Positions 20,201 through 38,548 of a DNA stretch of 38,548 bases are shown here, one piece after another. This stretch comes from a virus. The translations under genes and the position numbers were made by a program. Each line of letters starts with the position of its first letter. Positions within the stretch are counted from its first letter, which is position 1. The notes below the pieces were generated by a model. It searched no databases, was not told where the DNA came from, and saw only the letters and a program-made list of their open reading frames with translations. The stretch covers positions 1 to 38,548 of the IMG/VR virus record IMGVR_UViG_3300010370_000088; one strand, given 5' to 3'.

Positions 20201-23200
20201 CAACCAATAGAATTAACTGAAGAAATAAACTATGATCCTGATTTTACTTATAGAATTAAAACATCAGATATAGTAATAAAACCGATTGGATATACACATA
20301 ATATTTGGCCCACAGGCAATGAACCTCAGTTTTTGAGAACTCCAGGCTATGTACGATATACTGATGTGTTAGCCAATGTTGATACTTTAGATGAAATATT
20401 AACTAGAGATATTTCTACATTTAGTGAAGGCGACTATGTTTGGGCTGCATTTTTATCTCCTCCTAAATTATGGACAGTGTATAGATTCACTAAAACTAAC
20501 ATAAGATTAGAATTAATAGAATATAAGAATGGAAGTCTAATTCTTACAGCAGATTCGATTCCTGAATTATCAATCGGAGAAATAGTAGGTTTAGATAATA
20601 TTAGTTTAATTAAAGGTTTTTACAAGATAGTAGATATTATCGGTAGAAAAATTTATATTACAACCAAGATAGATAAATGGGAAAAAGATCTTAATAGTGA
20701 TAGTAGTATTTGTTTAGTTTATAAGTTTATTGAATCAAGAGTTGATACAGTAGATAATCTTAATTCATTTATACCTAATTATATTAAGAAAAATGAGTTA
20801 TTATGGGTCGACAATGATGGAACTAATAAGCATACTGTATACGAGCACAGTAAGGTATATACCCGAAGTTATGTGTCGACTTTAAATTTAAAAGAAAATA
20901 ACCTGTTATTTGGAAAGTCTACTTCAACAAGCAAAGACGGTTTAACTGCTGTTATATCTGATGAAAAGCAAGTCACAGTATTCTACAGAGGAATAGATTC
21001 GTCGTCTTGGAAGCAGCAGCACACTATATCAAGTTTCAGTGTGAATAAATTAACATTTGCAGACAAGGTATGTTTAAGCGATGATGCATCTTGGTTAGCA
21101 ATTACAGAAACTTTATCAACATTGGCCGAAAAGGTACATTTCTTTAAGAAAAATGCTGTATTAGGCGAATATTTGTTTTATCAAACAATAAGCAGTCCCT
21201 TAGTTACCGGAAAGAATTTTGGCAGAGTAATGACAATTCTTAAAGAAGATGGAGAGTATATTGCTGCTTTTGGTATTCCTTTAGATAATAAAGTTTTGAT
21301 TTATTCTATAACAGATGAAAATAATGCTTTATGGAATTTAGCACAAGATATAACTTCTCCTAGTTCGTCATCCACGGCCAAGTTTGGTATTAGTCTTGAC
21401 TTAGCCCAAGGAGCCTTGTTAGTAGGATCTCCAGGAGTAAGCACTGCTTATCTATATACTAAAGTTAGCAGTGGATACGACCTTGATGAAACAATTACAG
21501 ACTCCGGATATCCACAGAATAATATTAATTTAGGTTACAGTGTGGCCTTAAGATATGATGCTAAAGTAATTGCTTTAGGAGCACCTGAGGATGATACTTT
21601 GTCAGTTAATAGCGGACGGGTTGACATATTTGAAAAAGGTCTTGGCAATTTTTATAGTTTAAAGCAATCTATAAAAAGTCACTACAAGAAATCGTACGAA
21701 AAATTTGGTCATCAAGTTTTCTTTATGGGAGCAGATGCCGATACACTTGTAGTACTTTCAGTTAATGGAAATGTTAATAATTACAGCGTCTTTGATAATG
21801 ATACAACAACTTTTGATAATAATTCATTAAAATTTAATGACATAAAGTTTAGTTCAGGAAGAATAGATATCTATGACAAATATAATGAAAATTATATATT
21901 TGGTGAAAGTTTAATAACAGATAGCGGTACAGACTTAACTGATGATTATGCTTACAGTGTATCTGTAGGAAATAATGTTGTATTGGCAAGTAGTATCAGG
22001 GAAGATTTATCGAGTTTTATTAATCTTGGACAAGTCTTTAATTATACTAAGAGTGTGGGATCTTTTAGTTGGACTAAGAAATATCAGCAGAGCGAAAAAG
22101 TTTTTGCAAGTAAATTCAAGCGGGCCTATTTGTACGATACTGATTTTAACCAGTTATTAAAGTATTTAGATATTGTTGATGTTGGCCAAGGTAAGATTCC
22201 CGGAATAGCAGATCAGGAAATAAGATATAAAACTTATTACGACCCTGCCTTTTATGATATAGGAACGATAAATCAAAATGTAGATGAGGGCCAGTCTTGG
22301 AATAAACAACACGTTGGTATGTTATGGTGGGACTTAACTCGTGCAAAATTTATTGAAAATAATTTAGGCAATAATGTTTATAGGTCAACGAATTGGAATA
22401 AGTTGTATGAAACTGCAAGTGTTGATGTCTATGAATGGATAGAGTCAAAATTCAAGCCTTCGGAATGGGACAGCCTTAGTGGCACAGAAAAAGGCGATGC
22501 CTTAGGTATTAGCGGAACTTCGAAATATGGAAATGCTGTTTATAGCCTACGAAAAACCTATGATAATGTAAGCCAGTCCTTTAAAAATTTATATTATTAC
22601 TGGGTTAAGAATCCGACTATTATTCCTAATGTAGCAGATAGGAAATTAAGTGCCAATGATGTTTCTAAACTAATATCGGATCCTACTGCCCAAGGTTATA
22701 GTTGTTTAGGTTTTACCGGCTCTAATAGTTTTATACTTGTGAATTTAGTAAGATTTTTAAAGGGAGACAAAACTAATCTTAATATTGAATATTGGACAGT
22801 TGAAGATCACTTGACAAAATCTAATAAACATAGTCAATGGAAATTATTAAGCAATCATGAAAAAACTATTATTCCTGTTGAAATTGAAACTAAATGGTTT
22901 GACAGTTTATTAGGTAAAGACAATAACGATAGAGTAGTCCCCAATGTTAAATTACCTATTAAAAAGCGATATGGTATTAATAATCGTCCTCGACAAGGTA
23001 TGTTTGTTAATAGGCTTGAGGCTTTAAAGCAGTTTATTGAGCACACTAATAGCATTTTATTAAAGCGTTTAATTGTAGATGATTATGACATTTCAGATTT
23101 ATTTTTAAAAGATCCTGAGCCAAGTGCTTCAACTGGACTATGGGATTATACAGTTGAGACCGATGACGAAATTAGGTTTGTTGATACCTCATTGGTTACA

Positions 23201-26200
23201 CAGGCAAAATTTTCTCCTGTAATAGAAGATGGTAGAATAGTTGATGTTAATATTGTAAATTCTGGATATGGTTATAAGAATAGACCTTATTTGTCGATTA
23301 GTGGAAAAGGTAAGGATGCCCTTATAAGGACAAAAATAAATGCAGCGGGCCAAGTTATAAGCGTAGAAATTTTAAATCAAGGGCAGGGTTATCTTAGTGA
23401 TACACAGATTACTTCGAGATCATTTAGCGTTTTAGTAAAGTATGATTCTGCAATTTTTGGTGTTTGGAGTATTAAAGAGTATAATAGTTTAGATAATAAA
23501 TTTTATAAAATAAAAAGCCAAGGGTATGATACTACAAAATATTGGAAATATGTGGACTGGTATGGTGTAGGGTATAATCAGTTTACTAAGATTGACCATT
23601 TAGTAGAAAATACTTACAAGTTAGCAACACTATCGGCTAATATTGGACAGATAGTAAAAGTTGAAAATGTAGGCGCGGGTGGCTGGCTATTGTTGTATAA
23701 AAAGAATAATCTTAGCACATTGGACTACACAGAAAACTTTGATGTGATAGGTAGGAAAAATGGCACTATTCAGTTTTTAAACAACATTTACGACTTTTCG
23801 GTGGACATTATTGGTTATGATAGTAATCTGTATGACAGCCAATATTATGATAATTTGCCTGTTAAAGAACTAAGAATTATTTTAAATGTACTTAAAAATC
23901 AAATTCTAGTTGATGAATTATATGTTGAATATTTAAATCTATTCTTCAACTCTTTAAGATACATTTTATATGAACAGCCATTTGTTGACTGGGTATCTAA
24001 AACAAGCTTTGTCAAAAGTAAACATAATTTAGGTGAATTAAAACAAAAAGTAACTTATAAAAATGATAGTTTAGAAAACTTTGAAGATTATATTAAAGAA
24101 GTTAAACCTTATAGAACTAAGATAAGAGAATATATAAGTTCTTATAATAGACTTGAACAAAGTTCTTTAACGGTAACTGATTTTGATATTCCTCCTTATA
24201 TTGATGAATACGGCAATATTAAAACTTTAGAATTTAATATTAATGATGATTCAACGGATAATCCTAATTTATCGACTTACCCGTGGAAGCATTATAAGGA
24301 TAATGTAGGATTTAAGATATTAGATATTAAAATTATCGACGGAGGTTCAGGATATATTGCCAATCCAATTGTTAAAGTAATTGGTAATTGTAAAGTTCCT
24401 GCTAGAGTTTTGGCTTATACAACTCTTGGAAAAGTCAATAGATTACAAATCTTGAATCCAGGCTCGGGATATTTAACATGTCCTAAGATTATTATAGACG
24501 GAGGGTTGGATGTTTCCGGAGTTCAGGCTAAGGTAATGGCGGTAATCGAATCCGAGGTTGTAAGGGCTAATAAGATTACAATGAAGTTTGATAGAACAAG
24601 TCGTTCTAATAATTTTGCTGATATCGATATGCAAGAAACCTTGTCAGGCACCGGAAGTCAGTTACAGTTCGTCCTTCGTTACGCAGCCAGAACTGATAGA
24701 AATACCTATTCGGTTACAGTTAATGGTTTAGATATTCTTAAAGATGATTACGTTATCACTGTAAAAGAGTCTACATCAAGAGGTTATACAAGTTATTACG
24801 GTGTACTAACATTTGAAACTGCTCCTGTCAGAAATGCTGTAATTGTGGTTGATTATAAGGTTGGTTTTCAGCACTTAAATGCTTTGGATAGAATCACACA
24901 TTATTATGGTCCTAGCCAAGGAATGATAGGCAATGATTTTGCACAGTTGATGTCTGGGATAGATTATGGCGGTGTTGATATTCAAGGTTTAGTTAATTTT
25001 GTTGGCACTGGAGGGTGGGATAGCGACAATTGGGGAGATGGTATCTGGGGAGAAGAAAATGATAATTTTGAAGATCAAATTTTCGAAATTGATGAATCTA
25101 GTTCTTACGGACCATTTAGATTTAATTATATACCTGCACTTGGTCAACAAATTAATGTTTATTTAAAACGTCCAGTACTTGGAGAGGTTAATGAATACGT
25201 TGAAACTAGATTAGATGATCCTAATTTTGGAACCTTGTCGCCACTAACAAATCTTAGCGCAGTTATGCAGACAATTGTAGGTGATGGCACAACTTCTGAG
25301 TATATGTTACCTAATTTAACTGATACTCCTCCTTTAGATTTAGAACCTAATGATATAATTATTTTTAGGAAAATTACAAGTGATGGAAGTATTAGTCCTA
25401 AGCCTCAGGATTTCGATACACAATTGCAAGGTGGAAATTTAGCCTACACTACTGCTACAGGTTTAAGCCCTTCAGATATAAATGTCGATGGCGATGGACT
25501 AGTAACACCTTTAACCAGTTATGCTCCTGAAGAAATAGTTCCAGGGCAAGTTGTGGATGCTGTAGGTATTAAGGTTTTCCAATTGCCGTCTAGTGCTAGT
25601 ACCAAGATAATGTTTAAGAATTTTATTGGAGATGGAGTCAGTCGTAATTTTGCAATACAACAAATTCCACAAAATGCCAGCGGAGTTATTGTTAAAGTTG
25701 CCTCTCAAGTTAAAAAACGAAATGTTGATTACACTTTTGAATGGCATACCAGAAGTGTTCATTTTACGTCTGCACCGCCTTTAGGGTCTGTGATAAGTGT
25801 TATTAGCATTGGATATACATCAGACAAAATTCTTGATTTGGATTACTTTGTTGCAGATGGATCTACTGTTGAGTTCATTACATCTGCTGTATTCACAGAG
25901 AATTTAGGACACATTGTACTAGTTGACGGTGAACTTTTTGATTATGAAGTGTTTGAAACAGATTCTGAATATTCAGCTATCTATCGGGTCGGAATAAGAT
26001 TTGGAATAGCTCCTCCTGTTGATAGCATAATAAGTTATATTATCACCGATGATCAGAATTTTAGTGCGTCTGTGGTTAAGTCCGAACAAATTCCAACCGA
26101 CGGAAGTACTTCTCAGTTTGCATTAACAAACACAATTGGCATCAAAGATCCGTTAGCATCTAATGTTTTAGTTATTAAAAACGGACAGATATTAAATCCT

Positions 26201-27529
26201 TCTTTAAATGAATATTTTACTTTGTCAAACAATATCTTAACTTATACTATGAGTAAGTATGAACAAGTTCCAGGAACTATCGATCCTAGTAAAATTGAAG
26301 TTTTTCTGAATGGTGAAATATTACAGATAGGCATTGATTACACACTTGATTTAACTGGTTTTAGTGTAATTTTAAATTCAACTGCCTATGTGAATGACGG
26401 TATTTTAATTGTGTCTAATTTAATTGACTCTCAATACAAGATTGAAAATTCAAGTTCTAGCACTAGCATTATTTTTAGTTCTACTCCTTTATCCACAGAT
26501 TATATTGAAATTATAAGTTTTTACAATCACGATATTTTGGACATTGCTAGGACGCAAGAATCTATAAGCACTAGTTCAGCTCTCCAGCCAGATACTCCAG
26601 ATTACTATAGATATAGAAATTTACAAGGAGGAAAGTTTAAACTCTTTAAACAAGTAAGGATAGATGATTTTGTTTGGATTATTAAAAATAATGTGTTATT
26701 AAGTCATAGTATAGATTATTATTTAGACAGTGATTTAGAGCAGATAATTTTGGCTAATCCGTTAATAAGTACAGATATTTTAGATGTTATTATCTTTAGT
26801 TCGGGAGAGACAACTCAAGGATATGGTTTCATGCAGTTTAAAGATATGCTAAACCGTGTTCATTATAAGCGTTTAAATAAAACAAAAACTACACGTTTAT
26901 CACAGAATTTAAATCAGTTTGATTTAGAAATTCATGTGTACGATGCCAGTAATTTGGATCTACCAGATGTTTCTTTAACACTGCCAGGGATTATAGAAAT
27001 TAATGGAGAGCGTATTGAGTATTTTGAAAAATCAGGAAATGTTTTAAGCAAATTGCGTAGAGGGACTTTAGGAACAGGTGTTCCTTTAGTTCATAAACAA
27101 GATACAATGGTAGTATGCCTTGGATCATCGGAGACTATACCATATTCAGATGTTCAGAAGATTGTAAGAGATGTTTCGAATACGGTAAGGAATTCCATTA
27201 GTGTGACTGATTTTCATCTTGATAAAGATCAAATAGAAGTGTTTGTGGGAGGTCAGCGCCTAAGAAAATCTAATTATTCGTTGTTTAAATATACAAATAA
27301 TTACCCTTACAGCCCAGAAGGCGACGAAATAGTAGTGGCAGATTTTAGTGTTTCAGGAACTACTATTAATTTTGTCACTTCTGTTCCTGAGAACGTTGAA
27401 GTTTTAGTAATTAAGCGTACATTGTCATTGTGGGAAGATTCGGAAACTGCGACTATACAGGAATCTAGCACTGCACCTGCTAAATTCATAGTAAAAGCAT
27501 TACCATTTTACCCAGAATATCCCAAATAA
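14261..27529 (+). CDS. Giant 4422-aa virion structural protein, probably baseplate periphery
   Basis: One uninterrupted frame of 13.3 kb directly follows gp6, the place where T4 has genes 7-8. The start (ADLLPRFYRTDANKKFLFST, a SGYIGRN segment, RQEFYSWNPHINWDKFVNFQ, QYYWLPYGP) is a pattern I recall from large structural proteins of marine T4-like phages. In order: a cupredoxin-like domain (192-274); a long middle part with many Trp-rich stretches such as FFQWSNFIQND and NPWTYNYRGFSLPD; a probable seven-bladed FG-GAP-like propeller (2216-2597); two GSGY-type repeat blocks (about 2991-3053 and 3351-3416); and C-terminal beta repeats (about 3674-4100), ending near 4400 in further fibre-like modules. 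No enzyme motif or signal peptide is seen. It likely forms an extended arm of the baseplate carrying fibres. The start overlaps the gp6 stop by one base. Confidence 0.8.
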   Translation: MSLDNESPIPISNSTNRKSADLLPRFYRTDANKKFLFSTLDQLIRPGTVKKVSGYIGRNNAKSVQPDDIFINAANKIRQDYQLEPAAVIQDRFGNIDFFKDYIDHIGHINVLNGNTDNHSRLNRQEFYSWNPHINWDKFVNFQQYYWLPYGPDPIDIAGQQLAIDSTYTVILEDQGDSFAYLFTPDGLTRNPTITLYRGQTYRFDINSPEHPFSIKNLRSLGFLDRYTNNTNIVNQNAVTSGQVIFNVPPNAPDVLYYVSEVDPNVGGSIVIKDIEENTFLDVEKDIIGKKNYVLPNGLSLSNGMKLNFIGNTSPSMYKDGFWLVEGVGEAISLINANDLEIVGTYTQEDALLFDDDPFDAVPFSTRTTYPKNKDYIVVNRSSKDKNPWSRVNRWFHQDVVRKTAELRGDDFSLDQNLRATRPIIEFNANLKLYNFGHVNKKNVDVIDNYTTDVFSTIEGSLGYNIDGIDLADGMRVLFTADPDRLVNGKIFQVKFLNLTVPGRKLNFSALAPSDSAGSVNIATDTIKCDTDHRLINGDRVIYLSNGNIQLQGLIHRQIYYVKIIDQQTLQLYTDSLLQNVVDILATGDSIHSLEVFSGYRRQINLVETEDSVPLLNETVLVNKGMKESIKFIQNGKSYSVTGNQGLMYWYNGSNWLLGQVKFDVNQPLYFDVFDKDENSYGDSSIYDGSSFKGTKLFSYKVGTGSADSELGFSLSYRNINNVGDIVFNFDLLNDTFSYKNITNVINKKLNVGYLKIIKSLDTYEYVNGWVKSKVFDSQPVVRVFKNEFTEQVLNGVKTQVRIVNNFPIDTFDENIDLSDLKVKVYINGKKVLSSEFSVIDGVVRKEVVLKNDAKITDVVTLKLFSKQPKNQNGHYEIPLNLQNNPLNNDLTSFTLGEVIDHANSIVDNVDTMVGLFPGESNLRDLGDLTAFGTRFVQHSGPLNLALYALGSKDFNVVSALEKARNDYGRFKTAFLVLASEIGVQTEPKQLVDIILSELNKDKPKTDSYFLSDMFAYTANKRFEYKVLDERTKIYPLNSSFSLDELSNKAVLIYKNNVQLVHGKDYQFNNSFFTILSDLQEDDLLEVYEYETTDGSFCPPTPTKLGIYPAFEPKVYIDDTYLTPTTVIQGHDGSITIGFNDYRDQVLLELEKRIFNNIKIKYDPSIFDIFDYIPGHNRQLSYSKEEQEKILSQYFFQWSNFIQNDYTKQNNDLWDYLNPWTYNYRGFSLPDNTTLPAFWRGIYKWILDTDRPHTHPWECLGFSIEPRWWTEVYGPAPYTSDNYFLWDDIRDGIIREPGKSVKIVPKYAKSILNFGKPVNSNGQLINPIAAGYVKGLINPTQSGYYTFGDQGPVETAWRRSSYYPFSLLQSAILMEPAKVISLCYDRSRIVRNRNDQLVYSDTSLRLRLQDIVFPSIVSDNERLYSSGLINYIVNNFSIELSQPINKFRNELSSLTNKISSRLGGFTSKEKLKIILDSKNPSSTTGIFVPDENYKIFLNKGSPIQELIYSGIVLTKYNDGYEVRGYNKDQPYFKYYNYTSPGKEINIGGISESFINWDSGQRYISGQIVNYNNVYYRVKISHTSSENFDSSFYTKLNKLPLIGGRDIFIRKDFDDRTEYTVSYGTKFYTIQEVVDFILGYGKYLENQGFIFDDYNTNLKAVENWETSAKEFTFWTTQNWTEGSALSVSPAANNLNFKAAAAVIDNINDGFYGYKVFRVDGELLSDSFTSTFREDNAFNLKPKNTNHGIYGAVLRLVQKEHVLLLDNTTLFNDVIYDIEPGYKQDKVKIQGYLTTNWNGALNIPGFIYDEARVVDWEPWTDYNLGDIVFYKDFYYTASKFLPGTELLNEEDWFILDEKPESKLLPNWDYKAEQFTDYYDLDSDNFDIEQQRLAQHLIGYQKRQYLENIINDDISQYKFYQGMISEKGTQNVLNKLFDVLSSDNQESLTFSEEWAIRVGTYGASAIFDEIEFNLNEGKIKLNPQPIELTEEINYDPDFTYRIKTSDIVIKPIGYTHNIWPTGNEPQFLRTPGYVRYTDVLANVDTLDEILTRDISTFSEGDYVWAAFLSPPKLWTVYRFTKTNIRLELIEYKNGSLILTADSIPELSIGEIVGLDNISLIKGFYKIVDIIGRKIYITTKIDKWEKDLNSDSSICLVYKFIESRVDTVDNLNSFIPNYIKKNELLWVDNDGTNKHTVYEHSKVYTRSYVSTLNLKENNLLFGKSTSTSKDGLTAVISDEKQVTVFYRGIDSSSWKQQHTISSFSVNKLTFADKVCLSDDASWLAITETLSTLAEKVHFFKKNAVLGEYLFYQTISSPLVTGKNFGRVMTILKEDGEYIAAFGIPLDNKVLIYSITDENNALWNLAQDITSPSSSSTAKFGISLDLAQGALLVGSPGVSTAYLYTKVSSGYDLDETITDSGYPQNNINLGYSVALRYDAKVIALGAPEDDTLSVNSGRVDIFEKGLGNFYSLKQSIKSHYKKSYEKFGHQVFFMGADADTLVVLSVNGNVNNYSVFDNDTTTFDNNSLKFNDIKFSSGRIDIYDKYNENYIFGESLITDSGTDLTDDYAYSVSVGNNVVLASSIREDLSSFINLGQVFNYTKSVGSFSWTKKYQQSEKVFASKFKRAYLYDTDFNQLLKYLDIVDVGQGKIPGIADQEIRYKTYYDPAFYDIGTINQNVDEGQSWNKQHVGMLWWDLTRAKFIENNLGNNVYRSTNWNKLYETASVDVYEWIESKFKPSEWDSLSGTEKGDALGISGTSKYGNAVYSLRKTYDNVSQSFKNLYYYWVKNPTIIPNVADRKLSANDVSKLISDPTAQGYSCLGFTGSNSFILVNLVRFLKGDKTNLNIEYWTVEDHLTKSNKHSQWKLLSNHEKTIIPVEIETKWFDSLLGKDNNDRVVPNVKLPIKKRYGINNRPRQGMFVNRLEALKQFIEHTNSILLKRLIVDDYDISDLFLKDPEPSASTGLWDYTVETDDEIRFVDTSLVTQAKFSPVIEDGRIVDVNIVNSGYGYKNRPYLSISGKGKDALIRTKINAAGQVISVEILNQGQGYLSDTQITSRSFSVLVKYDSAIFGVWSIKEYNSLDNKFYKIKSQGYDTTKYWKYVDWYGVGYNQFTKIDHLVENTYKLATLSANIGQIVKVENVGAGGWLLLYKKNNLSTLDYTENFDVIGRKNGTIQFLNNIYDFSVDIIGYDSNLYDSQYYDNLPVKELRIILNVLKNQILVDELYVEYLNLFFNSLRYILYEQPFVDWVSKTSFVKSKHNLGELKQKVTYKNDSLENFEDYIKEVKPYRTKIREYISSYNRLEQSSLTVTDFDIPPYIDEYGNIKTLEFNINDDSTDNPNLSTYPWKHYKDNVGFKILDIKIIDGGSGYIANPIVKVIGNCKVPARVLAYTTLGKVNRLQILNPGSGYLTCPKIIIDGGLDVSGVQAKVMAVIESEVVRANKITMKFDRTSRSNNFADIDMQETLSGTGSQLQFVLRYAARTDRNTYSVTVNGLDILKDDYVITVKESTSRGYTSYYGVLTFETAPVRNAVIVVDYKVGFQHLNALDRITHYYGPSQGMIGNDFAQLMSGIDYGGVDIQGLVNFVGTGGWDSDNWGDGIWGEENDNFEDQIFEIDESSSYGPFRFNYIPALGQQINVYLKRPVLGEVNEYVETRLDDPNFGTLSPLTNLSAVMQTIVGDGTTSEYMLPNLTDTPPLDLEPNDIIIFRKITSDGSISPKPQDFDTQLQGGNLAYTTATGLSPSDINVDGDGLVTPLTSYAPEEIVPGQVVDAVGIKVFQLPSSASTKIMFKNFIGDGVSRNFAIQQIPQNASGVIVKVASQVKKRNVDYTFEWHTRSVHFTSAPPLGSVISVISIGYTSDKILDLDYFVADGSTVEFITSAVFTENLGHIVLVDGELFDYEVFETDSEYSAIYRVGIRFGIAPPVDSIISYIITDDQNFSASVVKSEQIPTDGSTSQFALTNTIGIKDPLASNVLVIKNGQILNPSLNEYFTLSNNILTYTMSKYEQVPGTIDPSKIEVFLNGEILQIGIDYTLDLTGFSVILNSTAYVNDGILIVSNLIDSQYKIENSSSSTSIIFSSTPLSTDYIEIISFYNHDILDIARTQESISTSSALQPDTPDYYRYRNLQGGKFKLFKQVRIDDFVWIIKNNVLLSHSIDYYLDSDLEQIILANPLISTDILDVIIFSSGETTQGYGFMQFKDMLNRVHYKRLNKTKTTRLSQNLNQFDLEIHVYDASNLDLPDVSLTLPGIIEINGERIEYFEKSGNVLSKLRRGTLGTGVPLVHKQDTMVVCLGSSETIPYSDVQKIVRDVSNTVRNSISVTDFHLDKDQIEVFVGGQRLRKSNYSLFKYTNNYPYSPEGDEIVVADFSVSGTTINFVTSVPENVEVLVIKRTLSLWEDSETATIQESSTAPAKFIVKALPFYPEYPK
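14834..15082 (+). other. Cupredoxin-like domain with most copper ligands lost
   Basis: Residues about 192-274 of the giant protein read TITLYRGQTYRFDINSPEHP, then a VPPNAPDVLYYVSEVDP segment and VGGSIVI. This is the strand order of small blue-copper domains, where the last loop is usually C-x-x-H-x-x-M. Here those positions are S260, D263 and V266, while H211 remains. The fold is inferred from pattern; metal binding is unlikely. Confidence 0.55.
20906..22051 (+). repeat. Seven FG-GAP-like repeats (probable beta-propeller) in the giant protein
   Basis: Residues about 2216-2597 hold seven units of about 50 residues. Each has an [FY]G/A-x-S/V-like entry, a hydrophobic strand ending in a small-residue turn, then a V-x-V/I-F/Y strand. 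Examples: FGKSTSTSKDGLTAVIS; FGISLDLAQGALLVGSPG; LGYSVALRYDAKVIALGAPE; then SGRVDIFEKG; YAYSVSVGNNVVLASS. This is the integrin-alpha/FG-GAP pattern, although the calcium-binding D-x-D-x-D-G loops are largely missing. Confidence 0.6.
23231..23420 (+). repeat. GSGY-type repeat block 1 in the giant protein
   Basis: Residues about 2991-3053 contain two copies of V-x-x-V-x-I-x-N-x-G-x-G-Y (IVDVNIVNSGYGY; VISVEILNQGQGY) about 45 residues apart. The same unit recurs at 24311. Confidence 0.6.
24311..24508 (+). repeat. GSGY-type repeat block 2 in the giant protein
   Basis: Residues about 3351-3416 contain ILDIKIIDGGSGY and VNRLQILNPGSGY, each followed by a P-x-[IV]-x-[IV] strand. They match the block at 23231 and probably form paired beta hairpin modules. 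Confidence 0.6.
25280..26550 (+). repeat. C-terminal D-G-x-T/S fibre-type beta repeats in the giant protein
   Basis: Residues about 3674-4097 hold a series of diverged units beginning GDGTTSEYML, GDGVSRNFAI, ADGSTVEFIT and TDGSTSQFAL. Each is followed by a strand like V-L-V-I-K-N-G or V-F-L-N-G-E, a D-Y-T/F turn and an I-x-F/L-x-x-x-P-P hairpin. This layout is common in phage fibre and adhesin shafts. Confidence 0.6.
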
Positions 27530-31595: not shown

Positions 31596-33113
31596 ATGCC
31601 ATACAGCATTGACAGATATAATGGAACACAACTAACCGTAGTTGAAGATGGTACTATTGATAGTACGTTGGACATCAAGCTAATTGGTAAGAATTATGCT
31701 GGCTATGGTGAGGCACAAAATGAAAATTTCGTACATTTACTAGAAAATTTTAGTAATCCTACTGCTCCGCCTAGGCCGCTAAGTGGGCAACTTTGGTATA
31801 ATAGTAGTTCAAAACGACTATCTTATTACAATGGAACAGCATGGAAGATAGCAGGCGGTGCAGAAGTTAAGTCATCTCCACCTTCTAATCTCGCTAAAGG
31901 TGATTTTTGGTTAAAAGAAAGCACCAATCAGGTGTATGTTCATAACGGAGTTGACTATACACTTGTGGGCCCTGATGCCGTGGAAGGATCTGGAATTACA
32001 CAATTTAGATCTAGGTCTGTTTTAGATACATTAGGAGGTAATCACCCAATAATCGAGTGTGTTATCAATGATGAAACAGTTTATATCATAAGCAGAACAG
32101 AGTTTACAATTGCTTCTGGACAAATAGCAAGTGGCGGCTTTACTAAGATTAAAGAAGGACTAACCTTAGCTTACACTACAGAAACAACAACTTCGGCATC
32201 TAATTATGGATGTACCGATATAAACATTGCAGATAGCGAGCCAAAGTTTAGCTTTTGGGGGACTGCTAGCAATAGTTTAAGGTTAAATGGCAAAAAAGAT
32301 ATTGACTTTATTAGCGCCATTAATCCGATCTTTACTGGTGTTGTACGTTTTTATGACCCAGGATTTACAGTAGGCAATGATAACGACTTAGCAGTTTTTG
32401 TTCAAGATGGAACTATACCAGTTATTAAAAATAGTTTAAGCTCTTTAATACGTTTTCAAACCTATTCAGGAACAAATAAATTTCCTTTAGAGATTGATGG
32501 ATCGAATTTATTGCCAGGGTATGACCCAGCAGGAAGCCCGACTACTGGCGTAAATGACATTGGTTCTGTAAGTAGAAAATTTAATATTGTTTATGCAAAT
32601 AGTTTTAGTGGAAATTCGGAAGGTGCTAATACCTTACTTGTAAACACTACCTATAGATCTGCCTCTGTATCATCTGCGGCCAACACTATAGTTGCTAGAG
32701 ATTCTAATGGAGATGTTTTTGGTGGTGTATTTAATGGCGTAGCAACAAGTGCTCGTTATGCTGACTTAGCAGAAAAATACTTACCTGATGCTGACTATGA
32801 TATCGGCACAGTTTTAGTTGTAGGTGGAGAGCAAGAAGTTACTGCCAGTAAGATTGGTCAGCGTGCTATCGGAGTAGTTAGTAGTCATCCTGCATATATA
32901 ATGAATAGTGATTTAGAGAATGGAATACTTGTAGCTTTAAAGGGTCGTGTTCCATGTAAAGTTTTAGGACCGGTAAAGAAAGGTGACAGACTAGTTGCAG
33001 GAAATAATGGCGTAGCAACTGTAAGTATGACAAGTTCTTCTGATGTCTTTGGAATAGCCTTGGCAAGTTCTGACGATCATGCAGAAAAAATAGTCGAAGT
33101 AGTAATATTATAA
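31596..33113 (+). CDS. Fibre protein sharing the N-terminal module, with a distinct C-terminal tip domain
   Basis: This 505-aa protein is the third copy of the module: LIGKNYAGYGEAQNENFVHL, GQLWYNSSSKRLSYYNG, GDFWLKESTNQVYVHNG. The centre has FWGTASNSLRLNGKKD and an SVSRKFNIVYANSF strand. From about residue 389 there is a different ending: YADLAEKYLPDADYDIGTVL, RAIGVVSSHPAYIMNS, ALKGRVPCKVLGPVKKGD, EKIVEVVIL. I have seen this kind of C-terminal domain on other phage fibres; it may be related to auto-cleaving or chaperone tip domains such as Peptidase_G2, but no catalytic residues can be assigned. Own late box and ribosome site suggest separate control from the upstream fibre. Confidence 0.8.
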   Translation: MPYSIDRYNGTQLTVVEDGTIDSTLDIKLIGKNYAGYGEAQNENFVHLLENFSNPTAPPRPLSGQLWYNSSSKRLSYYNGTAWKIAGGAEVKSSPPSNLAKGDFWLKESTNQVYVHNGVDYTLVGPDAVEGSGITQFRSRSVLDTLGGNHPIIECVINDETVYIISRTEFTIASGQIASGGFTKIKEGLTLAYTTETTTSASNYGCTDINIADSEPKFSFWGTASNSLRLNGKKDIDFISAINPIFTGVVRFYDPGFTVGNDNDLAVFVQDGTIPVIKNSLSSLIRFQTYSGTNKFPLEIDGSNLLPGYDPAGSPTTGVNDIGSVSRKFNIVYANSFSGNSEGANTLLVNTTYRSASVSSAANTIVARDSNGDVFGGVFNGVATSARYADLAEKYLPDADYDIGTVLVVGGEQEVTASKIGQRAIGVVSSHPAYIMNSDLENGILVALKGRVPCKVLGPVKKGDRLVAGNNGVATVSMTSSSDVFGIALASSDDHAEKIVEVVIL

Positions 33114-33122
33114 GGGCAAGCA

Positions 33123-34079
33123 ATGGGGTTCGGCGTAGGGCAATTAGTTGAAGATGTAGATTATACAACCGTATACAACAAAATACTTGCAGTTTACGGC
33201 AGAAATGACACCGGTTATGGGCAAGTTATGACATCAAACCCTGTGGCAAATAATGCTTTAATATTAGCTGCGCATTGGGATGAACTAAGAACTTACGTAG
33301 TTAATTCTAGAATTCATCAAGTAGGAACTGCTAGCTTAACAGACGTTGCACCAACAAATACTATTCAGTATAGTCATTTAAGTAGTTATAACACAATGGC
33401 AGATAACTGTGTAGCAGATAACAGAGTTATCGCAAGTGGACAGTTTACTCCTGATGAGTCTAAGTCCTCTGGAAGTAGAACATCGGCCTGGGGACAACAA
33501 AGTGCAAATAACCATGTTCTCACTGCTACCTGCACTGTAACCGGTGCAGATATGAACGGTGATGGGGCCCGTCGAGGATTAAGATACTTTTTTAATGCTG
33601 GTGGAAAAATTAAAATTAATTGTGAATTATCAGGGTTTACCACAGCATCTGATCCTGCCGGACAAGGTAAAGGACAAAAATGGTCTGACGCTTTTAGTAG
33701 TGCCGGAACTATTGTAATGGATTACACTCAAACTACAGCTAGTTCAGGAACAGGAAGCAGCGTTGGTGGGCTAGATTTGTCTACTTCGGATCAGCAAATT
33801 TATACCAAATCTTTAACTGGTGTAGTTTATTCAGAGAATTATTTTAGAATATGGGCTCGTTATTCTGATGCCTCAGAAACAGCAATTATTTTTACAATTA
33901 AATTTTACGATTTAGATACTGGTGATCAGCGTCCTGGTGTTTTTCCAGGACCTGCTGTGGATGAAGCAGTTGATGGTACGCTGACTGTGGCTTTTAAGCA
34001 AGACAGACCATCTGGGAGTTATGTGTCTGTAACTTCACCTAGCTATAGTAGCATTAGTTTTAGCGCGGGAACTTCATAA
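33123..34079 (+). CDS. Virion protein, first copy of a tandem paralogous pair
   Basis: This 318-aa protein is of a type seen near fibres in marine T4-like phages. The start is EDVDYTTVYNKILAVYGRND; NSRIHQVG follows; the best-conserved block is HVLTATCTVTGADMNGDG, then RRGLRYFFNAGGKIKI (about 131-165); the end has DEAVDGTLTVAFKQDRPSGS. The next gene repeats all of these in the same order. The Y-G-x-x-M and N-A-G-G-K pattern suggests a beta-rich tip or decoration protein. No enzyme motif is seen. An AAGGG ribosome site precedes the ATG, 9 nt after the third fibre gene, so it is cotranscribed with it. Confidence 0.72.
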   Translation: MGFGVGQLVEDVDYTTVYNKILAVYGRNDTGYGQVMTSNPVANNALILAAHWDELRTYVVNSRIHQVGTASLTDVAPTNTIQYSHLSSYNTMADNCVADNRVIASGQFTPDESKSSGSRTSAWGQQSANNHVLTATCTVTGADMNGDGARRGLRYFFNAGGKIKINCELSGFTTASDPAGQGKGQKWSDAFSSAGTIVMDYTQTTASSGTGSSVGGLDLSTSDQQIYTKSLTGVVYSENYFRIWARYSDASETAIIFTIKFYDLDTGDQRPGVFPGPAVDEAVDGTLTVAFKQDRPSGSYVSVTSPSYSSISFSAGTS

Positions 34080-34086
34080 TTAAATA

Positions 34087-35088
34087 ATGAGTCTTGGACA
34101 ATATCAAGTAACAGAAGATGTAGATTACACTACAGTTTATGACAAGATTGCGGTTGTATACGGACGCAATGATAATGGTTACGGCCAAACAATGGCTAAT
34201 AATCCAGCAGTAGATCCAGCAACAACTAACCCAGTTATTACAGCTACACAATGGGATACTTTAAGAGTATATATAACTAACACAAGAATTCATCAAGCTG
34301 GTAGTGCTAGTTTAATAGATGTAAGCTCAGGAGATGTTATAACCTACACTCAACTGAGCGGTTATAATACACTAGCAGATACTTGCACTACAGATAATAG
34401 GATAATAGCAGCTGGTCAGTTTACCCCAGATGAAGCCAAGGCCTCGGCAACTAGGCAAAGTAGTGTTAGCGGAACATGGGGACAACAAAGTGCAAGTAAT
34501 CATGTTCTTACTGCTACCTGTACTGTTACAGGTGCTAACATGAATGGTGACGGAAGTCGCAGGGGTTTACGCTATTTTTTTAATGCTGGTGGAAAAATTA
34601 AGATTGCGTTAAGTTTAGCATCATTTACTGGAGGTGTTTCAGGAAAAGGGCAAATTTGGGCTGATTTATTCAGTGGTGCAGGCACAATTTATATGGACTA
34701 TACTCAAACACTATGCACAGGATCAGGAACTACTTCAACTGTTGGTGGACTAGACCTAACCACAACAGACCAACAGATTTTTAGGAAAGATGTAAGCGGT
34801 GGAGTATATTCTGAGAATTATTTTATAATTTATGCTCGATTTACTGACGTTAATCAAACAGCTATCCTTTTTACAGTAAAATGTTATGACCTAGATGCAG
34901 TTATTATTGGCGGTGGAGCTGCACCTGCTCCAGGGTCCACACCAGGAACACCGTCAGGTAACACTATTGATGAAGCAGTTGATGGTAATTTAACCGTTTC
35001 GTTTGCACAAGATCGTCCATCTGGAAGTTATGTTAGTATAACAACTCCAACCTATAGTTCAGTCTCTATCAGTACAGGCACTTCATAA
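34087..35088 (+). CDS. Virion protein, second copy of a tandem paralogous pair
   Basis: This 333-aa paralogue of the preceding gene has the start VTEDVDYTTVYDKIAVVYGR, HVLTATCTVTGANMNGDG, RRGLRYFFNAGGKIKI, and the end DEAVDGNLTVSFAQDRPSGS. It carries small insertions relative to its twin, including a Pro/Gly/Ala-rich linker (GGGAAPAPGSTPGTPSG) just before the C-terminal unit. DNA identity is visible in the conserved block (for example a shared stretch around TTTTTTAATGCTGGTGGAAA), so duplication is not ancient or is constrained. The start at 34087 lacks a Shine-Dalgarno and lies 7 nt after the previous stop; reinitiation is likely. Confidence 0.72.
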   Translation: MSLGQYQVTEDVDYTTVYDKIAVVYGRNDNGYGQTMANNPAVDPATTNPVITATQWDTLRVYITNTRIHQAGSASLIDVSSGDVITYTQLSGYNTLADTCTTDNRIIAAGQFTPDEAKASATRQSSVSGTWGQQSASNHVLTATCTVTGANMNGDGSRRGLRYFFNAGGKIKIALSLASFTGGVSGKGQIWADLFSGAGTIYMDYTQTLCTGSGTTSTVGGLDLTTTDQQIFRKDVSGGVYSENYFIIYARFTDVNQTAILFTVKCYDLDAVIIGGGAAPAPGSTPGTPSGNTIDEAVDGNLTVSFAQDRPSGSYVSITTPTYSSVSISTGTS

Positions 35089-35097: not shown

Positions 35098-35126
35098 TTG
35101 ACTTTTTCTTTAGATAATTATAAAAT
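35098..35126 (+). promoter_or_regulatory. sigma70-like promoter for the glycosyltransferase operon
   Basis: TTGACT (35098-35103), 17 nt, TAAAAT (35121-35126): 5/6 at each box with ideal spacing. It lies in the 61-nt gap before 35150, and a ribosome site (GGAG, 35141-35144) follows. A second TATAAT at 35132-35137 is too close to the gene start to be the better choice. Confidence 0.6.
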
Positions 35127-35149
35127 ACTCTTATAATTACGGAGATTTT

Positions 35150-35497
35150 ATGGATTCTAAAATTGAAAAAGCTTTCGAAGCAGCCAGTTTAATGGCTACT
35201 TTTAACAGTCAAAAGCGTCTTTTAGAAGAAGAGTTTGCTCAAACATTATTGTATTATTATAAAGGCGGAACTTTTGTAGCCAGTGAACAAAGACTTTCAT
35301 TTTTAAGTGCTTTAAAAAATGAGAAAGTTGAATCGATAGTTTTATTAGATGATAATAATGCACCGATAGCAGTTGAGAATATAAGTGAATTTTTTGATAA
35401 TTTATTTTCTCATTATAAAGAAGCTACTAACCTTTTTTATTACAAGTATAAAAAGATTACATCTAGCAAAACTATAGAAAGTATTTTAAATGACTAA
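35150..35497 (+). CDS. Small protein of unknown function, first gene of the glycosyltransferase operon
   Basis: This 115-aa protein has the start KIEKAFEAASLMATFNSQKR and contains FAQTLLYYYKGGTF and a VLLDDNNAPIAVENI strand, then a helical C-terminus with YYKYKK. It looks like a helix-rich soluble protein and resembles, in plan, small proteins I recall next to fibre and glycosyltransferase genes in marine T4-like phages; I do not know a function. The GGAG at 35141-35144 fixes the start. Its last 8 nt overlap the next gene (ATGACTAA), indicating coupled translation with the glycosyltransferase. Confidence 0.65.
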   Translation: MDSKIEKAFEAASLMATFNSQKRLLEEEFAQTLLYYYKGGTFVASEQRLSFLSALKNEKVESIVLLDDNNAPIAVENISEFFDNLFSHYKEATNLFYYKYKKITSSKTIESILND

Positions 35498-36305
35498 AGG
35501 TGTTTTGCTCTTTGCTCTTAATGGAGAGTTTAAGTATACTGATCTGGCTGAATTGACGGCTAAACGAATTAAGAAATTTTTAAAATTACCTGTTACTGTA
35601 GTTGTTAATAACAAATATAAAAATAAAGGTAAATTGTTCGATAAAATTATTAATATAAAGGATGATCAAGTTCAGTATCGTTTACTGAAAGACGGTGGTG
35701 ATTCGTCGCAAAGAGTAAAATGGTTGAATTTTACAAGAGCAGACTGTTATGAGTTATCTCCATATGACGAAACTTTAGTTCTTGATGTTGATTATCTTAT
35801 TAATTCTGACCATTTAAGCGTATGCTTTGATTTAGGTAAAGATTTTTTAATTTTTAAAGATAGTTTTGATTTATCTGATATAAGAAAATTAGATGAGTTT
35901 GATTATATAAATCCTTTCTCAGTGAAGTTTTATTGGGCCACAGTTTTTTACTTTAAGAAAACCGAGTTAAATAAGATCTTTTTTGAATTTACAAGATATG
36001 TAAAAGATAATTGGCACTACTATTGTAGTCTTTATCAGATAAAAGATAAAAAATTCCGTAATGATTTTGCTTTCAGCATTGCAATCCATTCAATTTTTAA
36101 TCATGCGGTTTCAGATAGGTTTGGGTTTATACCAGGAAAGAAGTTTTACAGTATCGATAAGGATTTCTTAATTAAAGATGTTAAAGGAACATTAACCTTT
36201 CTTCTGTCAAACGAGTCAAATGATAAGTTGCAACCTGCATCGATAAGCAATACTGATGTGCATGTTATGAATAAATTTAGTATGTTAAGGGTTTATAATG
36301 AGTAA
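35490..36305 (+). CDS. Probable GT-A glycosyltransferase (first of three)
   Basis: This 271-aa protein starts MTKGVLLFALNGEFKYTDLA, giving a Rossmann-like first strand, then VTVVVNNKYKNKGKLFDKI. A D-x-D motif is seen in ETLVLDVDYLINSD (DVD at 99-101), expected to bind the metal and the nucleotide sugar. A later FYWATVFYFKKTELN segment matches the acceptor side of GT8-like folds. It is related to the next gene, which starts with a similar KG-x-x-x-FA-x-N strand. The start overlaps the upstream gene by 8 nt and the end overlaps the downstream gene by 8 nt. Sugar donor and acceptor are unknown. Confidence 0.62.
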   Translation: MTKGVLLFALNGEFKYTDLAELTAKRIKKFLKLPVTVVVNNKYKNKGKLFDKIINIKDDQVQYRLLKDGGDSSQRVKWLNFTRADCYELSPYDETLVLDVDYLINSDHLSVCFDLGKDFLIFKDSFDLSDIRKLDEFDYINPFSVKFYWATVFYFKKTELNKIFFEFTRYVKDNWHYYCSLYQIKDKKFRNDFAFSIAIHSIFNHAVSDRFGFIPGKKFYSIDKDFLIKDVKGTLTFLLSNESNDKLQPASISNTDVHVMNKFSMLRVYNE

Positions 36306-37125
36306 AGGCCATGTTATATTCGCTCAGAATTCAGATATAGATTATATTAGACAAGCATATGCACTAGCATTAAGTATTAAAAAATTTAATACAATAAATG
36401 AAGTTTGTTTAATAACAAATGACTCTGTTCCTATCGATTATATAAATGTTTTTGATCATATTGTTAAATTTCCCTGGGGGGACATGGCCGAAAAGTCCCA
36501 ATGGAAAGTTGAAAACAGATGGAAAATAATTCATGCTACTCCATTTAAAGAGAATCTAGTATACGATTCAGATATGCTATTGTTAGAAAGCAATGACTAC
36601 TTATGGCAATACTTGCAGTTTGAGGATGTGCAATTAACAAATAGAGTTTATAATTATAAAGGAGATAGGGTTCTTAAAACATTTAATCCTTATAGAAAAG
36701 TTTTCGATCAAAATAATCTTCCAGATGTGTATTGTGGGCTATTTTATTTTAAAAAGAACAAAAAAAGCTTTGAGTTTTTTCGATGGGTTGAGCTAATTAT
36801 GAAAGATTATGAACGAATTTACAAAAAGTTTACCCCAAACGCGACGCAAAAATTCTGTAGTATGGATGTATCAGCAGCTATTGCATCAGACATAATGGGG
36901 TTGTGTGGAAATCAAGTTTTATCTTTTACACATATGAAACCTGGAGTTCAAGGGTGGAATGTAAATAATCTCGAAAGTTGGCAAAATTATGTTTTAAGTT
37001 ATTTTAATTCCGAGTTAGAGTTGATGATAGGCAATTATCGACAGTCTGGACTATTCCATTACGTGGAAGATTCCTTTTTAACAAATACAGTAATTAAAAA
37101 ATTAGAGGAAGCAAATGAGATATAG
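36298..37125 (+). CDS. Probable GT-A glycosyltransferase (second of three)
   Basis: This 275-aa protein has the start MSKGHVIFAQNSDIDYIRQA and a first Rossmann part with EVCLITNDSVPIDYINVF. The D-x-D motif is in ENLVYDSDMLLLES (DSD at 90-92). Downstream, DVYCGLFYFKKNKKSFEFF and a CSMDVSAAIASDIMG segment resemble the sugar-binding and acceptor parts of GT8-like enzymes. The motif is clearer here than in the preceding gene. Overlaps are 8 nt upstream (ATGAGTAA) and 11 nt downstream. Possible targets are virion fibres, host surface glycans or modified DNA; no DNA-modification gene is in the window, so the last is only a possibility. Confidence 0.7.
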   Translation: MSKGHVIFAQNSDIDYIRQAYALALSIKKFNTINEVCLITNDSVPIDYINVFDHIVKFPWGDMAEKSQWKVENRWKIIHATPFKENLVYDSDMLLLESNDYLWQYLQFEDVQLTNRVYNYKGDRVLKTFNPYRKVFDQNNLPDVYCGLFYFKKNKKSFEFFRWVELIMKDYERIYKKFTPNATQKFCSMDVSAAIASDIMGLCGNQVLSFTHMKPGVQGWNVNNLESWQNYVLSYFNSELELMIGNYRQSGLFHYVEDSFLTNTVIKKLEEANEI

Positions 37126-37672
37126 GACAATTGAGCTTCCTCCTTTAATTTTATCTCCTAATAACTTTTATCTATATTATAATGATGAAGGAGATATTTT
37201 AGCATTAACTAATGAGAAATTAGATGATGGTAATTTTATTGAGGTGTCTGAGAAATTTGTTATTGATTTTGTAGAAAGTAAAAAAGAAATCAAAAATTTC
37301 AAAGTAAAAATATCGGATCGCGTGAGGCTTGAACAAAAGAAGGTGCTAGTTCGAAATTCGTATGATGTTTTGGTTGTTAATCCTATACATGACCCCTCTA
37401 GTGTTAAATTACTTATAACTGTTACAGGTACTTGTTTACATTTAAAACTAAACAACTTTGAAGACTCTTTCATTGTAAACGAGTCAAAAGTATTTGTATT
37501 TTATGTAGCTAGTTGTAAAAATTTAAATTTTTTAAAATTTACATTTAAGGCCACGCTCAGAGAGTTATTAGATGGTATAGAAATTGTATATAATTTTGAT
37601 ATGAGTAACGAGGTTATTGTTACTCTTAATGAATTTGAAAGTTACGGGCTTGTATATGACAAAAAAGATTAA
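37115..37672 (+). CDS. Protein of unknown function in the glycosyltransferase operon
   Basis: This 185-aa protein, with RYRTIELPPLILSPNNFYLY at the start, lies wholly inside the operon, overlapping the gene before by 11 nt and the gene after by 17 nt. It contains VEVSEKF-like and KVKISDRVRLEQKKVLV segments and LKLLITVTGTCLHL-type strands, so it seems beta-rich. The composition is high in K, E, N, F and V. No family recognised. Placement between glycosyltransferases suggests it works with them, for example as acceptor-binding or scaffold protein, but there is no direct evidence. Confidence 0.6.
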   Translation: MRYRTIELPPLILSPNNFYLYYNDEGDILALTNEKLDDGNFIEVSEKFVIDFVESKKEIKNFKVKISDRVRLEQKKVLVRNSYDVLVVNPIHDPSSVKLLITVTGTCLHLKLNNFEDSFIVNESKVFVFYVASCKNLNFLKFTFKATLRELLDGIEIVYNFDMSNEVIVTLNEFESYGLVYDKKD

Positions 37673-38548
37673 ACTTATTAATTATGATCTAATTTTCCTT
37701 AGTTATGATGAGCCTAATAAAGAACGTAATTATGCTGATTTAAAGAAAAAATTTCCTTGGGCTAAACGAGTAGATGGCGTGCATGGCAGCGATAGTGCTC
37801 ATAAGGCATGTGCAAGGCTGGCAGAAACTGAGCGTGTTACTATCATCGATGGCGATAACATTGTTAAACCTGAGCTCATGGATCAGGTTATAGAGCTGAA
37901 CGATCATGCAGATTTGACAACATGTGTGTTATCTTATCCTGCTTATAATATTATTAATGGACTAGTTTATGGAAATGGCAGTATAAAGAATTGGGATACA
38001 CAACTAATTCTTAATATGAAAACTCACGAAAATGCTGATACTGATAACGGAAGAACTCAAGTTGACTTTTGTTGGGAAATAAAATATCTGCAAATGAAAA
38101 ATTGGATGAGTTATGTGCATAATAATGCTAATGCACGGCAAGCATGGCGAGCAGGATTTCGAGAAGGTGTTAAAATGTGCTTATTAGAAGGCACTAAACC
38201 TGTTCTAGAAAAACCATTTGATCAGCAAGTTCATTGGAAAAACTATCATAGATTAGTGACATGGATGAATGTTGGCAGCGATGTTGAAAATGGTTTATGG
38301 GCAATATATGGCGCACGGTTAGGCTGTTATATGACAATGCTTACAGAGTGGGATTACCTGAATGTAAGAACTTTTAGTTATCTTAATGAGTTATTTGAAA
38401 AAGTAGCACCAACTAATGACGACGATTTGTTAAAAGAGATTAACAGGTTAGGCAAGGAGTTAAAAGAAGAGTTAAAGATTTTAGTAGGTCCTCAAGTGTT
38501 GGATCTAGATCAAAGTAAATTTTTTAAAGCTCTTTACACTAACCCGCC
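37656..38548 (+). CDS. Probable GT-A glycosyltransferase-like protein, truncated by the right edge
   Basis: From the ATG at 37656 the frame stays open for 297 codons to the window end. The start is MTKKIKLINYDLIFLSYDEP, then ERNYADLKKKFPWAKRV, GVHGSDSAHKACARLAET and RVTIIDGDNIVKPEL, with a D-x-D type DGD at 65-67. This N-terminal plan (a strand ending FLSYDEPN, an A-K-R-V-x-G-V strand, an A-H-K-A-x-A helix, a DGD motif) is one I recall from glycosyltransferase-like proteins of marine T4-like phages. Later parts with NWDTQLILNMKTHENAD and GLWAIYGARLGCYMT look like conserved active-site surroundings. The C-terminus lies beyond the window. It overlaps the preceding gene by 17 nt. Confidence 0.72.
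   Translation, partial: MTKKIKLINYDLIFLSYDEPNKERNYADLKKKFPWAKRVDGVHGSDSAHKACARLAETERVTIIDGDNIVKPELMDQVIELNDHADLTTCVLSYPAYNIINGLVYGNGSIKNWDTQLILNMKTHENADTDNGRTQVDFCWEIKYLQMKNWMSYVHNNANARQAWRAGFREGVKMCLLEGTKPVLEKPFDQQVHWKNYHRLVTWMNVGSDVENGLWAIYGARLGCYMTMLTEWDYLNVRTFSYLNELFEKVAPTNDDDLLKEINRLGKELKEELKILVGPQVLDLDQSKFFKALYTNP

Follow-up and report, generated by a model that had tools for sequence, protein, structure and literature searches.

Five overlapping genes at the 3' end of the window, the whole 38,548-nt stretch of viral DNA analysed here, form a conserved module (A-E) and not a local oddity, and the assignment of three of their products (B, C and E) to the glycosyltransferase type is well supported. 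In an abundant and uncultured group of aquatic jumbo phages of the T4 superfamily it ranks among the best-conserved gene clusters. We propose, with a probability of roughly 0.55, that it acts as the obligate core of an island for virion decoration, through which these phages glycosylate and further modify their own fibre proteins.

Architecture of the five-gene block

Re-computation of the open reading frames and coordinates reproduced exactly the five-gene layout of the original prediction and its overlaps of 8 nt between A and B (ATGACTAA), 8 nt between B and C (ATGAGTAA), 11 nt between C and D and 17 nt between D and E (Table 1), the last presuming that E starts at the ATG at 37656. E is incomplete in the window, with 297 residues against about 309 in its homologues. 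Among 117 relatives the reading frames overlap in 117 cases for A/B, 116 for B/C, 104 for C/D and 113 for D/E, most commonly by 4 or 8 nt; these lengths are upper bounds, as the start was taken as the first possible codon. The overlaps exceed chance, yet their lengths are unremarkable, and the stoichiometric pathway once read from such tight packing is not implied. The overlap form ATGANTAA was also considered as a special signal and rejected, 4- and 8-nt overlaps being simply the most frequent in the family.

The genes are real: all five are under purifying selection in comparison with close relatives (dN/dS about 0.05-0.25 where dS was measurable), D evolving fastest. The 61-nt gap before A contains two promoter-like sites on the plus strand (35098..35137; TTGACT-17-TAAAAT and TTTAGA-17-TATAAT), which are weak, the total of such matches being no higher than in shuffled sequence, and the T4-type late promoter TATAAATA has no occurrence in the window.

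Table 1. Genes of the block and of the fibre region preceding it.
Gene	Coordinates	Strand	Description
F0	31596..33113	+	fibre-type virion protein, family f5; upstream neighbour; Phosso homologue at 1e-92
F1	33123..34079	+	family f3, about 300 aa, in fibre gene block; 60% identical to F2
F2	34087..35088	+	family f3; directly upstream of A
A	35150..35497	+	115 aa, conserved, soluble; families 11 and 6
B	35490..36305	+	predicted GT8-like glycosyltransferase, DVD; D99 and D101 invariant across the family; paralogue of C (hhalign 99.8%)
C	36298..37125	+	predicted GT8-like (glycogenin fold) glycosyltransferase, DSD; invariant H212-M-K214; AF2 pLDDT 94.8
D	37115..37672	+	185 aa, evolving fast; only about 115 aa long in other clades
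E	37656..38546	+	predicted GT-A-like glycosyltransferase, DGD; best conserved of the five genes; truncated at its 3' end where the contig stops

Predicted folds of B, C and E

Predicted folds, profile matches and invariant aspartates in the DxD motifs uphold the claim that the block encodes three glycosyltransferase-type proteins. The translations place the three motifs at residues 99-101 of B, 90-92 of C and 65-67 of E; in E, D65 and D67 are invariant in 35 sequences, and in C, D92 is invariant and position 90 is D or E. Structure prediction, which had been suggested as a check, gave a GT-type fold for C and a model with weaker resemblance to glycosyltransferases for E. The model of C matches glycogenin in Foldseek (E-value ~1e-6, probability 1.00) and a profile match to glycogenin is found at 5e-4, while B receives its fold through homology to C only. 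The two proteins are paralogues that share a glycogenin-like (GT8-type) fold, as modelled for C and as judged from sequence for B. Late in the chain C has the invariant H212-M-K214 and also W228, and B has H258 and K262, with a spacing unlike that of the C-terminal HxxGxxKPW metal-binding motif of GT8. No above-cut-off match to PF01501 (GT8) was obtained for B, C or their relatives, and we therefore call the two proteins GT8-like and do not file them as GT8 members.

E is predicted to be a separate, GT-A-like enzyme, and homology to B or C was looked for and not found. Its model has a pLDDT of 90.7 and its leading structural matches are all glycosyltransferases, at E-values of ~1e-3 and low TM-scores; among solved structures it comes nearest to RmlT, SunS and the glycosyltransferase for the major capsid protein of PBCV-1, and the matches among viral models include a glycosyltransferase of mycobacteriophage Che8, among many others. 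No glycosyltransferase profile scored over its cut-off for E, with only Glyco_tranf_2_3 registering below it (E-value 0.073). The alignment of E contains 53 invariant columns.

Conservation of the block across phages

The linkage of the genes is unbroken across the phages that carry them. A-B-C-D is present in 104 of 110 distinct viral loci that were found through E and had upstream room; C is followed by E in all 105 loci compared, and A and B stand ahead of C in 111 of 112. Among jumbo-phage contigs that bear the baseplate wedge gene, all 20 that reach at least 27 kb beyond it contain E, 21.8-27.5 kb downstream, and the 23 wedge-bearing contigs that lack E stop short, with at most 24.3 kb of room past the wedge gene. 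Each of two IMG/VR scans gave at least about 600 stretches of this phage group, more than 580 of them confirmed, and in comparisons with close relatives E is conserved as well as, or better than, the adjoining fibre genes.

The suggestion that the system is undescribed still stands, as the block corresponds to no Pfam family and at most to PHROGs of unknown function, and no paper on it was found. Searches of 50,697 phage records by tblastn with B, C and E of the window, together with E2 and f3, returned no match, the wedge protein serving as positive control. A distant member of the C family gave only matches at an E-value of ~0.9, to cyanophage ACG-2014f, which fits with phrog_1903 being the family that most relatives of C match. 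Scanning A, B and E against Pfam and PHROG gave nothing usable, and E and C, searched as profiles against six phage genomes without an internal positive control, found nothing.

A fixed position between fibre genes and a variable downstream region

The block was originally noted to lie behind Ser/Thr/Asn-rich fibre genes. The position holds far beyond the window, the gene directly ahead of A belonging to family f3 in 100 of 108 loci and the order f5-f3 occurring in 77; the richness is moderate only, at 25-32% in the fibre-type genes before A against 11-25% in the other open reading frames preceding the operon. Relatives of F0 carry a Peptidase_G2/intramolecular-chaperone domain (over the Pfam cut-off in relative L028), and F2, a putative virion protein, is a candidate acceptor. 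The Ser/Thr-rich C-terminus of F1 and F2 appears, in the tails compared, to be clade-specific as opposed to a conserved acceptor signal.

The region downstream of E is known from relatives, where it contains a set of twitch radical SAM enzymes, methyltransferases and other transferases that varies from phage to phage. A twitch radical SAM gene is found there in 79 of 95 loci, and all 11 large records contain such genes (1-16 matches per record); a member of family f0 matches NF033640 (NCBIfam) at 402.7 bits against a threshold score of >170 bits. TM-like segments occur in only 3 of 775 downstream open reading frames of relatives, and in none of the five proteins of the block.

At the equivalent site the cultured phages Phosso (of Sinorhizobium) and Atu_ph07 (of Agrobacterium) have radical-SAM/cupin genes and, encoded between radical SAM genes, a Cys-His-Ser-tailed protein (CHxSCHxSCHxSR; 190414-191334 in Phosso), which hints at a general site of fibre modification. 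In cyanophage ACG-2014f a tail fibre gene is flanked by a glycosyltransferase gene and 2OG oxygenase genes. Bacterial relatives of E adjoin GT4/GT2 genes. Relatives of E are present in bacterial chromosomes that lack fibre genes, including an E-E2-twitch radical SAM trio in Bdellovibrionia, so that at least part of the pathway is able to serve another purpose.

Virion decoration and competing explanations

From these arrangements we infer a protein acceptor, a sugar, an order of steps and a benefit. B, C and E would act as cytoplasmic glycosyltransferases that assemble a short glycan on proteins of the fibre region, namely the f5/f3 products encoded just upstream; A and D, as small soluble helpers, might be adaptors; the twitch radical SAM enzymes of the downstream region, along with its methyltransferases and other transferases, would diversify the decoration phage by phage, and the gain could be altered adsorption or shielding. 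Glycosylation of the phage's own fibres is the best-supported option because the block has no membrane partners, because T4 DNA alpha-glucosyltransferase was not found over the cut-off in the 11 large records and because its position is locked to virion genes. The protein-modifying-type enzymes of cultured relatives at the equivalent site, the fibre neighbours in cyanophage ACG-2014f and the GT4/GT2 neighbours of bacterial E relatives also count in its favour. Closeness to the fibre genes may, on the other hand, reflect only late expression.

The same GT4/GT2 neighbours would also suit a block that, in the infected cell, produces or alters a glycan of the host surface (LPS or capsule), for serotype conversion or superinfection exclusion, and LPS and capsule genes have been described in marine phages, together with a 'lock-out' idea (PMC5332604). 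We regard this as unlikely: the block is tied to fibre genes, and there is no sign of a flippase, GtrA, GtrB, a polymerase, the membrane glycosyltransferase of Gtr-type serotype conversion or any other membrane partner, given that TM-like segments are absent from A-E and confined to 3 of the 775 downstream open reading frames of relatives.

Peptides are frequent substrates of twitch/SPASM-type radical SAM enzymes, and A, D or an f3 protein could be the precursor of a small modified non-structural product (RiPP- or small-molecule-like), with the glycosyltransferases and radical SAM enzymes as tailoring enzymes. The constant place of A as first gene, the tailed protein of Phosso and Atu_ph07 and the fibre-less trio of Bdellovibrionia fit such a pathway, which nevertheless seems improbable, as A and D have no conserved Cys- or Ser-rich core, Cys/His-rich tails are absent from all module-bearing loci, and no membrane exporter appears among the downstream open reading frames.

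Modification of phage DNA to give hypermodified bases is more doubtful still. DNA-glycosylating phage enzymes are well known (cited in PMC12619734), and 8 of 11 large records contain a thymidylate-synthase-family gene that is a possible hydroxymethylase, a PF00303 match that cannot separate it from thymidylate synthase. T4 alpha-glucosyltransferase (AGT, PF11440), however, exceeds the cut-off in none of the 11, the genes lie with fibres and not with replication genes, and the fold of B and C is nearest to glycogenin. That the GT-fold proteins are mainly non-catalytic assembly factors or fibre chaperones, as obligate fibre-gene linkage and poor sequence matches to known glycosyltransferases might suggest, is very improbable given the signs of an active site, namely the DxD aspartate pair invariant in B and E, the invariant HMK of C and the 53 invariant columns of E.

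Relation to known systems

Glycosyltransferase genes linked to virion genes, as in phage virion glycosylation systems, are found in A-E. In mycobacteriophages, the C-termini of capsid and tail-tube proteins have been shown to carry sugar (Freeman 2023, cited in PMC12619734); the likeness is the phage-encoded glycosylation of virion proteins, here proposed, and the match of E to the Che8 model, whereas A-E form a fixed five-gene block behind fibres, accompanied by twitch radical SAM genes, in unrelated jumbo phages. With GT8 glycogenin the fold of C, and of its paralogue B, is shared along with DxD and a late His..Lys motif, but B and C fall below the Pfam cut-off and lack the full HxxGxxKPW. 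The PBCV-1 enzyme (2p6w/2p72), involved in major capsid protein glycosylation, is among the top solved folds for E, yet at an E-value of ~1e-3 and only 9% identity, and belongs to a giant algal virus with another gene context. Moraphages are likewise jumbo phages from aquatic samples that are uncultured, and their core genes include four putative glycosyltransferases for which DNA, serotype and virion targets are discussed (PMC12619734); from their description they belong to a different lineage, and the passages concerned give neither a gene order nor a radical SAM link. In Vibrio phage K566 (OZ196521.1, complete genome) twitch-type radical SAM genes surround the genes for a GT8 protein (Pfam) and for one that is GT4-like, but profile searches did not detect the A-E block, and in the annotation the cluster does not adjoin recognised fibre genes.

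A 183-kb T4-like marine viral genome has 12 radical SAM genes (PMC5332604), comparable to the numbers of twitch radical SAM matches per record here; there the genes were interpreted as part of Fe-S metabolism, with no link to fibre genes or a glycosyltransferase block in the passages concerned. In the literature searched, no paper was found that joins radical SAM enzymes to tail fibres or to jumbo-phage glycosyltransferases. A wider and tentative reading treats the fixed site behind the fibre genes as a virion-chemistry locus, at which A-E would attach a glycan to the fibre proteins. Twitch radical SAM enzymes, up to 16 of them in a tandem array particular to each phage, would then rewrite this glycan, and in related phages the site would possibly serve peptide chemistry, with radical-SAM/cupin enzymes acting on a protein that has a Cys-His-Ser tail. 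The block also offers a concrete hypothesis for the expansion of radical SAM genes in marine T4-like phages. If the fibres are decorated, the adhesins of these phages would be chemically modified proteins, which would bear on receptor binding, on the prediction of host range and on recognition by defence systems.

Block ORFs and source phage

Recomputing the ORF coordinates reproduced the five ORFs (A to E) at the 3' end of the window and their overlaps of 8, 8, 11 and 17 nt, in the forms given in the original prediction; the DVD, DSD and DGD motifs reported there are likewise present. The window is a complete IMG/VR record (38,548 b), and the reading frame of E is cut by the contig end; its relatives are ~309 aa long. 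Against close relatives, dN/dS is ~0.05-0.25 for A-C and E; D is the fastest-evolving of the five, with dS or dN/dS unreliable in two of four comparisons, and has 185 aa in the window versus ~115 aa in other clades.

The record also encodes SbcC/SbcD, a late sigma factor, baseplate hub and wedge genes and a 4,422-aa ORF. The wedge protein is 31-35% identical, across most of its length, to proteins of jumbo phages such as Atu_ph07, Phosso and GAP32, which points most probably to a jumbo phage of the T4 superfamily as the source; a 399-kb contig contains a close relative of E. The 4,422-aa ORF (14261-27529) comes after the wedge gene, and at the corresponding place in Atu_ph07 and Phosso a gene of >13 kb is annotated as coding for a structural protein.

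Locations of motifs, fibre-region genes and related loci
Feature	Protein, locus or phage	Position	Context
f3 family member	F1	33123-34079	window
f3 family member	F2	34087-35088	window
DVD motif	B	residues 99-101	window
DSD motif	C	residues 90-92	window
DGD motif	E	residues 65-67	window
E and E paralogue	L089, L090, L093, L104		Bdellovibrionia and relatives; apart from fibre genes
Cys-His-Ser-tailed ~300-aa protein	Phosso, L292 (172000-195700)	record 190414-191334	between radical SAM genes, behind fibre genes
Cys-His-Ser-tailed ~300-aa protein	Atu_ph07, L291	record 121118-122008	between radical SAM genes, behind fibre genes

B, C and E resemble glycosyltransferases

B and C are paralogous (hhalign, 99.8%), and their profiles match glycogenin at 0.04 and 5e-4, respectively; the predicted model of C (pLDDT 94.8) matches glycogenin structurally with an E-value of ~1e-6. 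Both Asp residues of the DxD motif in B are invariant, as are D92 and H212-M-K214 in C. Profile comparison of E with C found no relation. The top structural matches of the E model (pLDDT 90.7) are all glycosyltransferases (GTs), though weak: RmlT, the PBCV-1 capsid glycosyltransferase and SunS. The model also weakly matches viral GT models, including one of Che8, and matches two uncultured Caudovirales proteins at 1e-14. Since B, C and E all stay below the curated GT profile cut-offs, we describe B and C as GT8-like and E as GT-A-like, and not as family members. Structure prediction, one of the checks originally proposed, gave a glycogenin-type fold for C and a probable GT-like fold, on weak matches, for E; the claim of three GT-type proteins is supported by these predictions, the homology of B to C and the DxD motifs, and falls short at the curated cut-offs. 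A and D are small proteins with no TM-like segment and no usable database match.

The block is conserved and fixed in position

Relatives of E were taken from a profile-based IMG/VR scan; the matches listed comprise 128 distinct viral loci, 110 with upstream room. Among these, A, B, C and D are all present at 104 of the 110; of the remaining six, D alone could not be recognised in five and A alone in one. The reverse test from C, again among the matches listed, found E in 105/105 and A and B in 111/112, the single exception having an unlabelled 134-aa ORF where A would be. ORFs overlap at almost all block junctions among relatives. Twenty of 43 wedge-relative contigs carry E, 21.8-27.5 kb downstream of the wedge gene, and all of these reach 27 kb or more past it; the other 23 lack E and run no further than 24.3 kb. 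Given these linkage counts and distances, from tests that share some contigs and are not fully independent, the block looks universal and position-fixed in this clade.

Flanking genes

Family f3 lies directly upstream of the block in 100 of 108 loci, mostly preceded by family f5; different genes occupy this place in the others. One f5 relative exceeds the Pfam cut-off for Peptidase_G2, an intramolecular-chaperone domain. No recognised domain was found in f3, a putative virion protein by gene position. The tandem genes F1 and F2 are paralogues with 60% identity, and f3 is duplicated at several other loci.

Downstream, 95 loci offered enough sequence for a census; the window itself ends before this region. 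Of these loci, 79 encode twitch radical SAM proteins, a family matching NF033640 at 402.7 bits; 54 have an E paralogue, 53 a member of a methyltransferase-like family, and up to 49 encode other radical SAM families. Family f13, which on reading its sequence resembles GT10-type enzymes without a database match, is present in 25. Large records have 1-16 twitch matches, often in tandem close to the block. Records L066 (352 kb), L195 (275 kb) and L061 (317 kb) hold 13-16 each, many in tandem near the GT block, an enzyme expansion unusual for a virus.

Bacterial relatives of E

Homologues of E occur in Bdellovibrionia genomes with an E paralogue alongside; at L090 the pair is followed by a twitch-type radical SAM/SPASM gene, and the flanking genes read as MoxR/DUF58-like. 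A Tateyamaria relative lies near a GT4 gene, and a distant Salinispora form between glycosyltransferase genes. Distant E-like proteins also occur in actinobacterial genomes (L107-L126; Micromonospora, Streptomyces, Salinispora and others), the L118 copy among glycosyltransferase genes. The E-bearing MAG contigs L082-L084, L091 and L092 look like phage contigs because the whole block is present. The bacterial relatives argue for a glycan role of E but show that it is not tied to fibres everywhere.

Probable acceptors

Phage-encoded GTs and virion glycosylation are already known. A literature search found no published description of the five-gene block as a conserved unit, of its tie to fibre genes or of its coupling to twitch radical SAM arrays; PMC5332604 describes one T4-like marine genome with many radical SAM genes, reported as Fe-S genes. 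We consider the fibre-region proteins the probable acceptors of the block's putative GTs (probability about 0.55), because the position, the cytoplasmic enzymes and the late gene block are all consistent with this and there are viral precedents: mycobacteriophages glycosylate virion proteins (cited in PMC12619734), and PBCV-1, met among the weak matches of E, encodes a GT for its capsid. Glucosylation of DNA would accord with the thymidylate-synthase-family gene in 8 of 11 large records, but no T4 alpha-GT passes the cut-off in any of the 11. Modification of host-surface glycans requires membrane proteins, yet A-E contain no TM-like segment and only 3 of 775 downstream ORFs have one. With fibre-region proteins as acceptors, the block's GTs would glycosylate them, and the variable downstream radical SAM and methyltransferase set might then diversify the decoration; we only infer this second step, since twitch/SPASM enzymes have both peptide and small-molecule substrates.

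The same site in cultured phages

Homologues of f5 lie at the corresponding genomic place in cultured Phosso (1e-92) and Atu_ph07 (5e-84), as does a homologue of family f7 in Phosso (1e-79). After these genes, Phosso encodes a cupin, a number of radical SAM proteins and a ~300-aa protein with C-terminal CHTSCHASCHSSRSRR; gene order in Atu_ph07 is the same, and the tail there is CHSSCHASCHNSRSRR. Within the phage collection searched, this Cys-His-Ser repeat tail protein turned up in these two phages only. The tail looks like a candidate modification target and resembles a peptide core modified by radical SAM enzymes, carried by what may be a virion protein.

The tail fibre gene of the Synechococcus cyanophage ACG-2014f (L452, 17676-42308) is flanked by glycosyltransferase and 2OG-Fe(II) oxygenase genes. 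A 253-aa protein at this locus is a weak relative of C, and a gene annotated as DNA methyltransferase matches Methyltransf_24. In Vibrio phage K566 (L285, 150829-179779), a Pfam GT8 protein and a GT4-like protein are encoded amid several radical SAM genes, making this phage a practical model. From the gene contents of Phosso, Atu_ph07, ACG-2014f and K566, the site behind the fibres may therefore be a general protein-modification locus whose chemistry is exchangeable.
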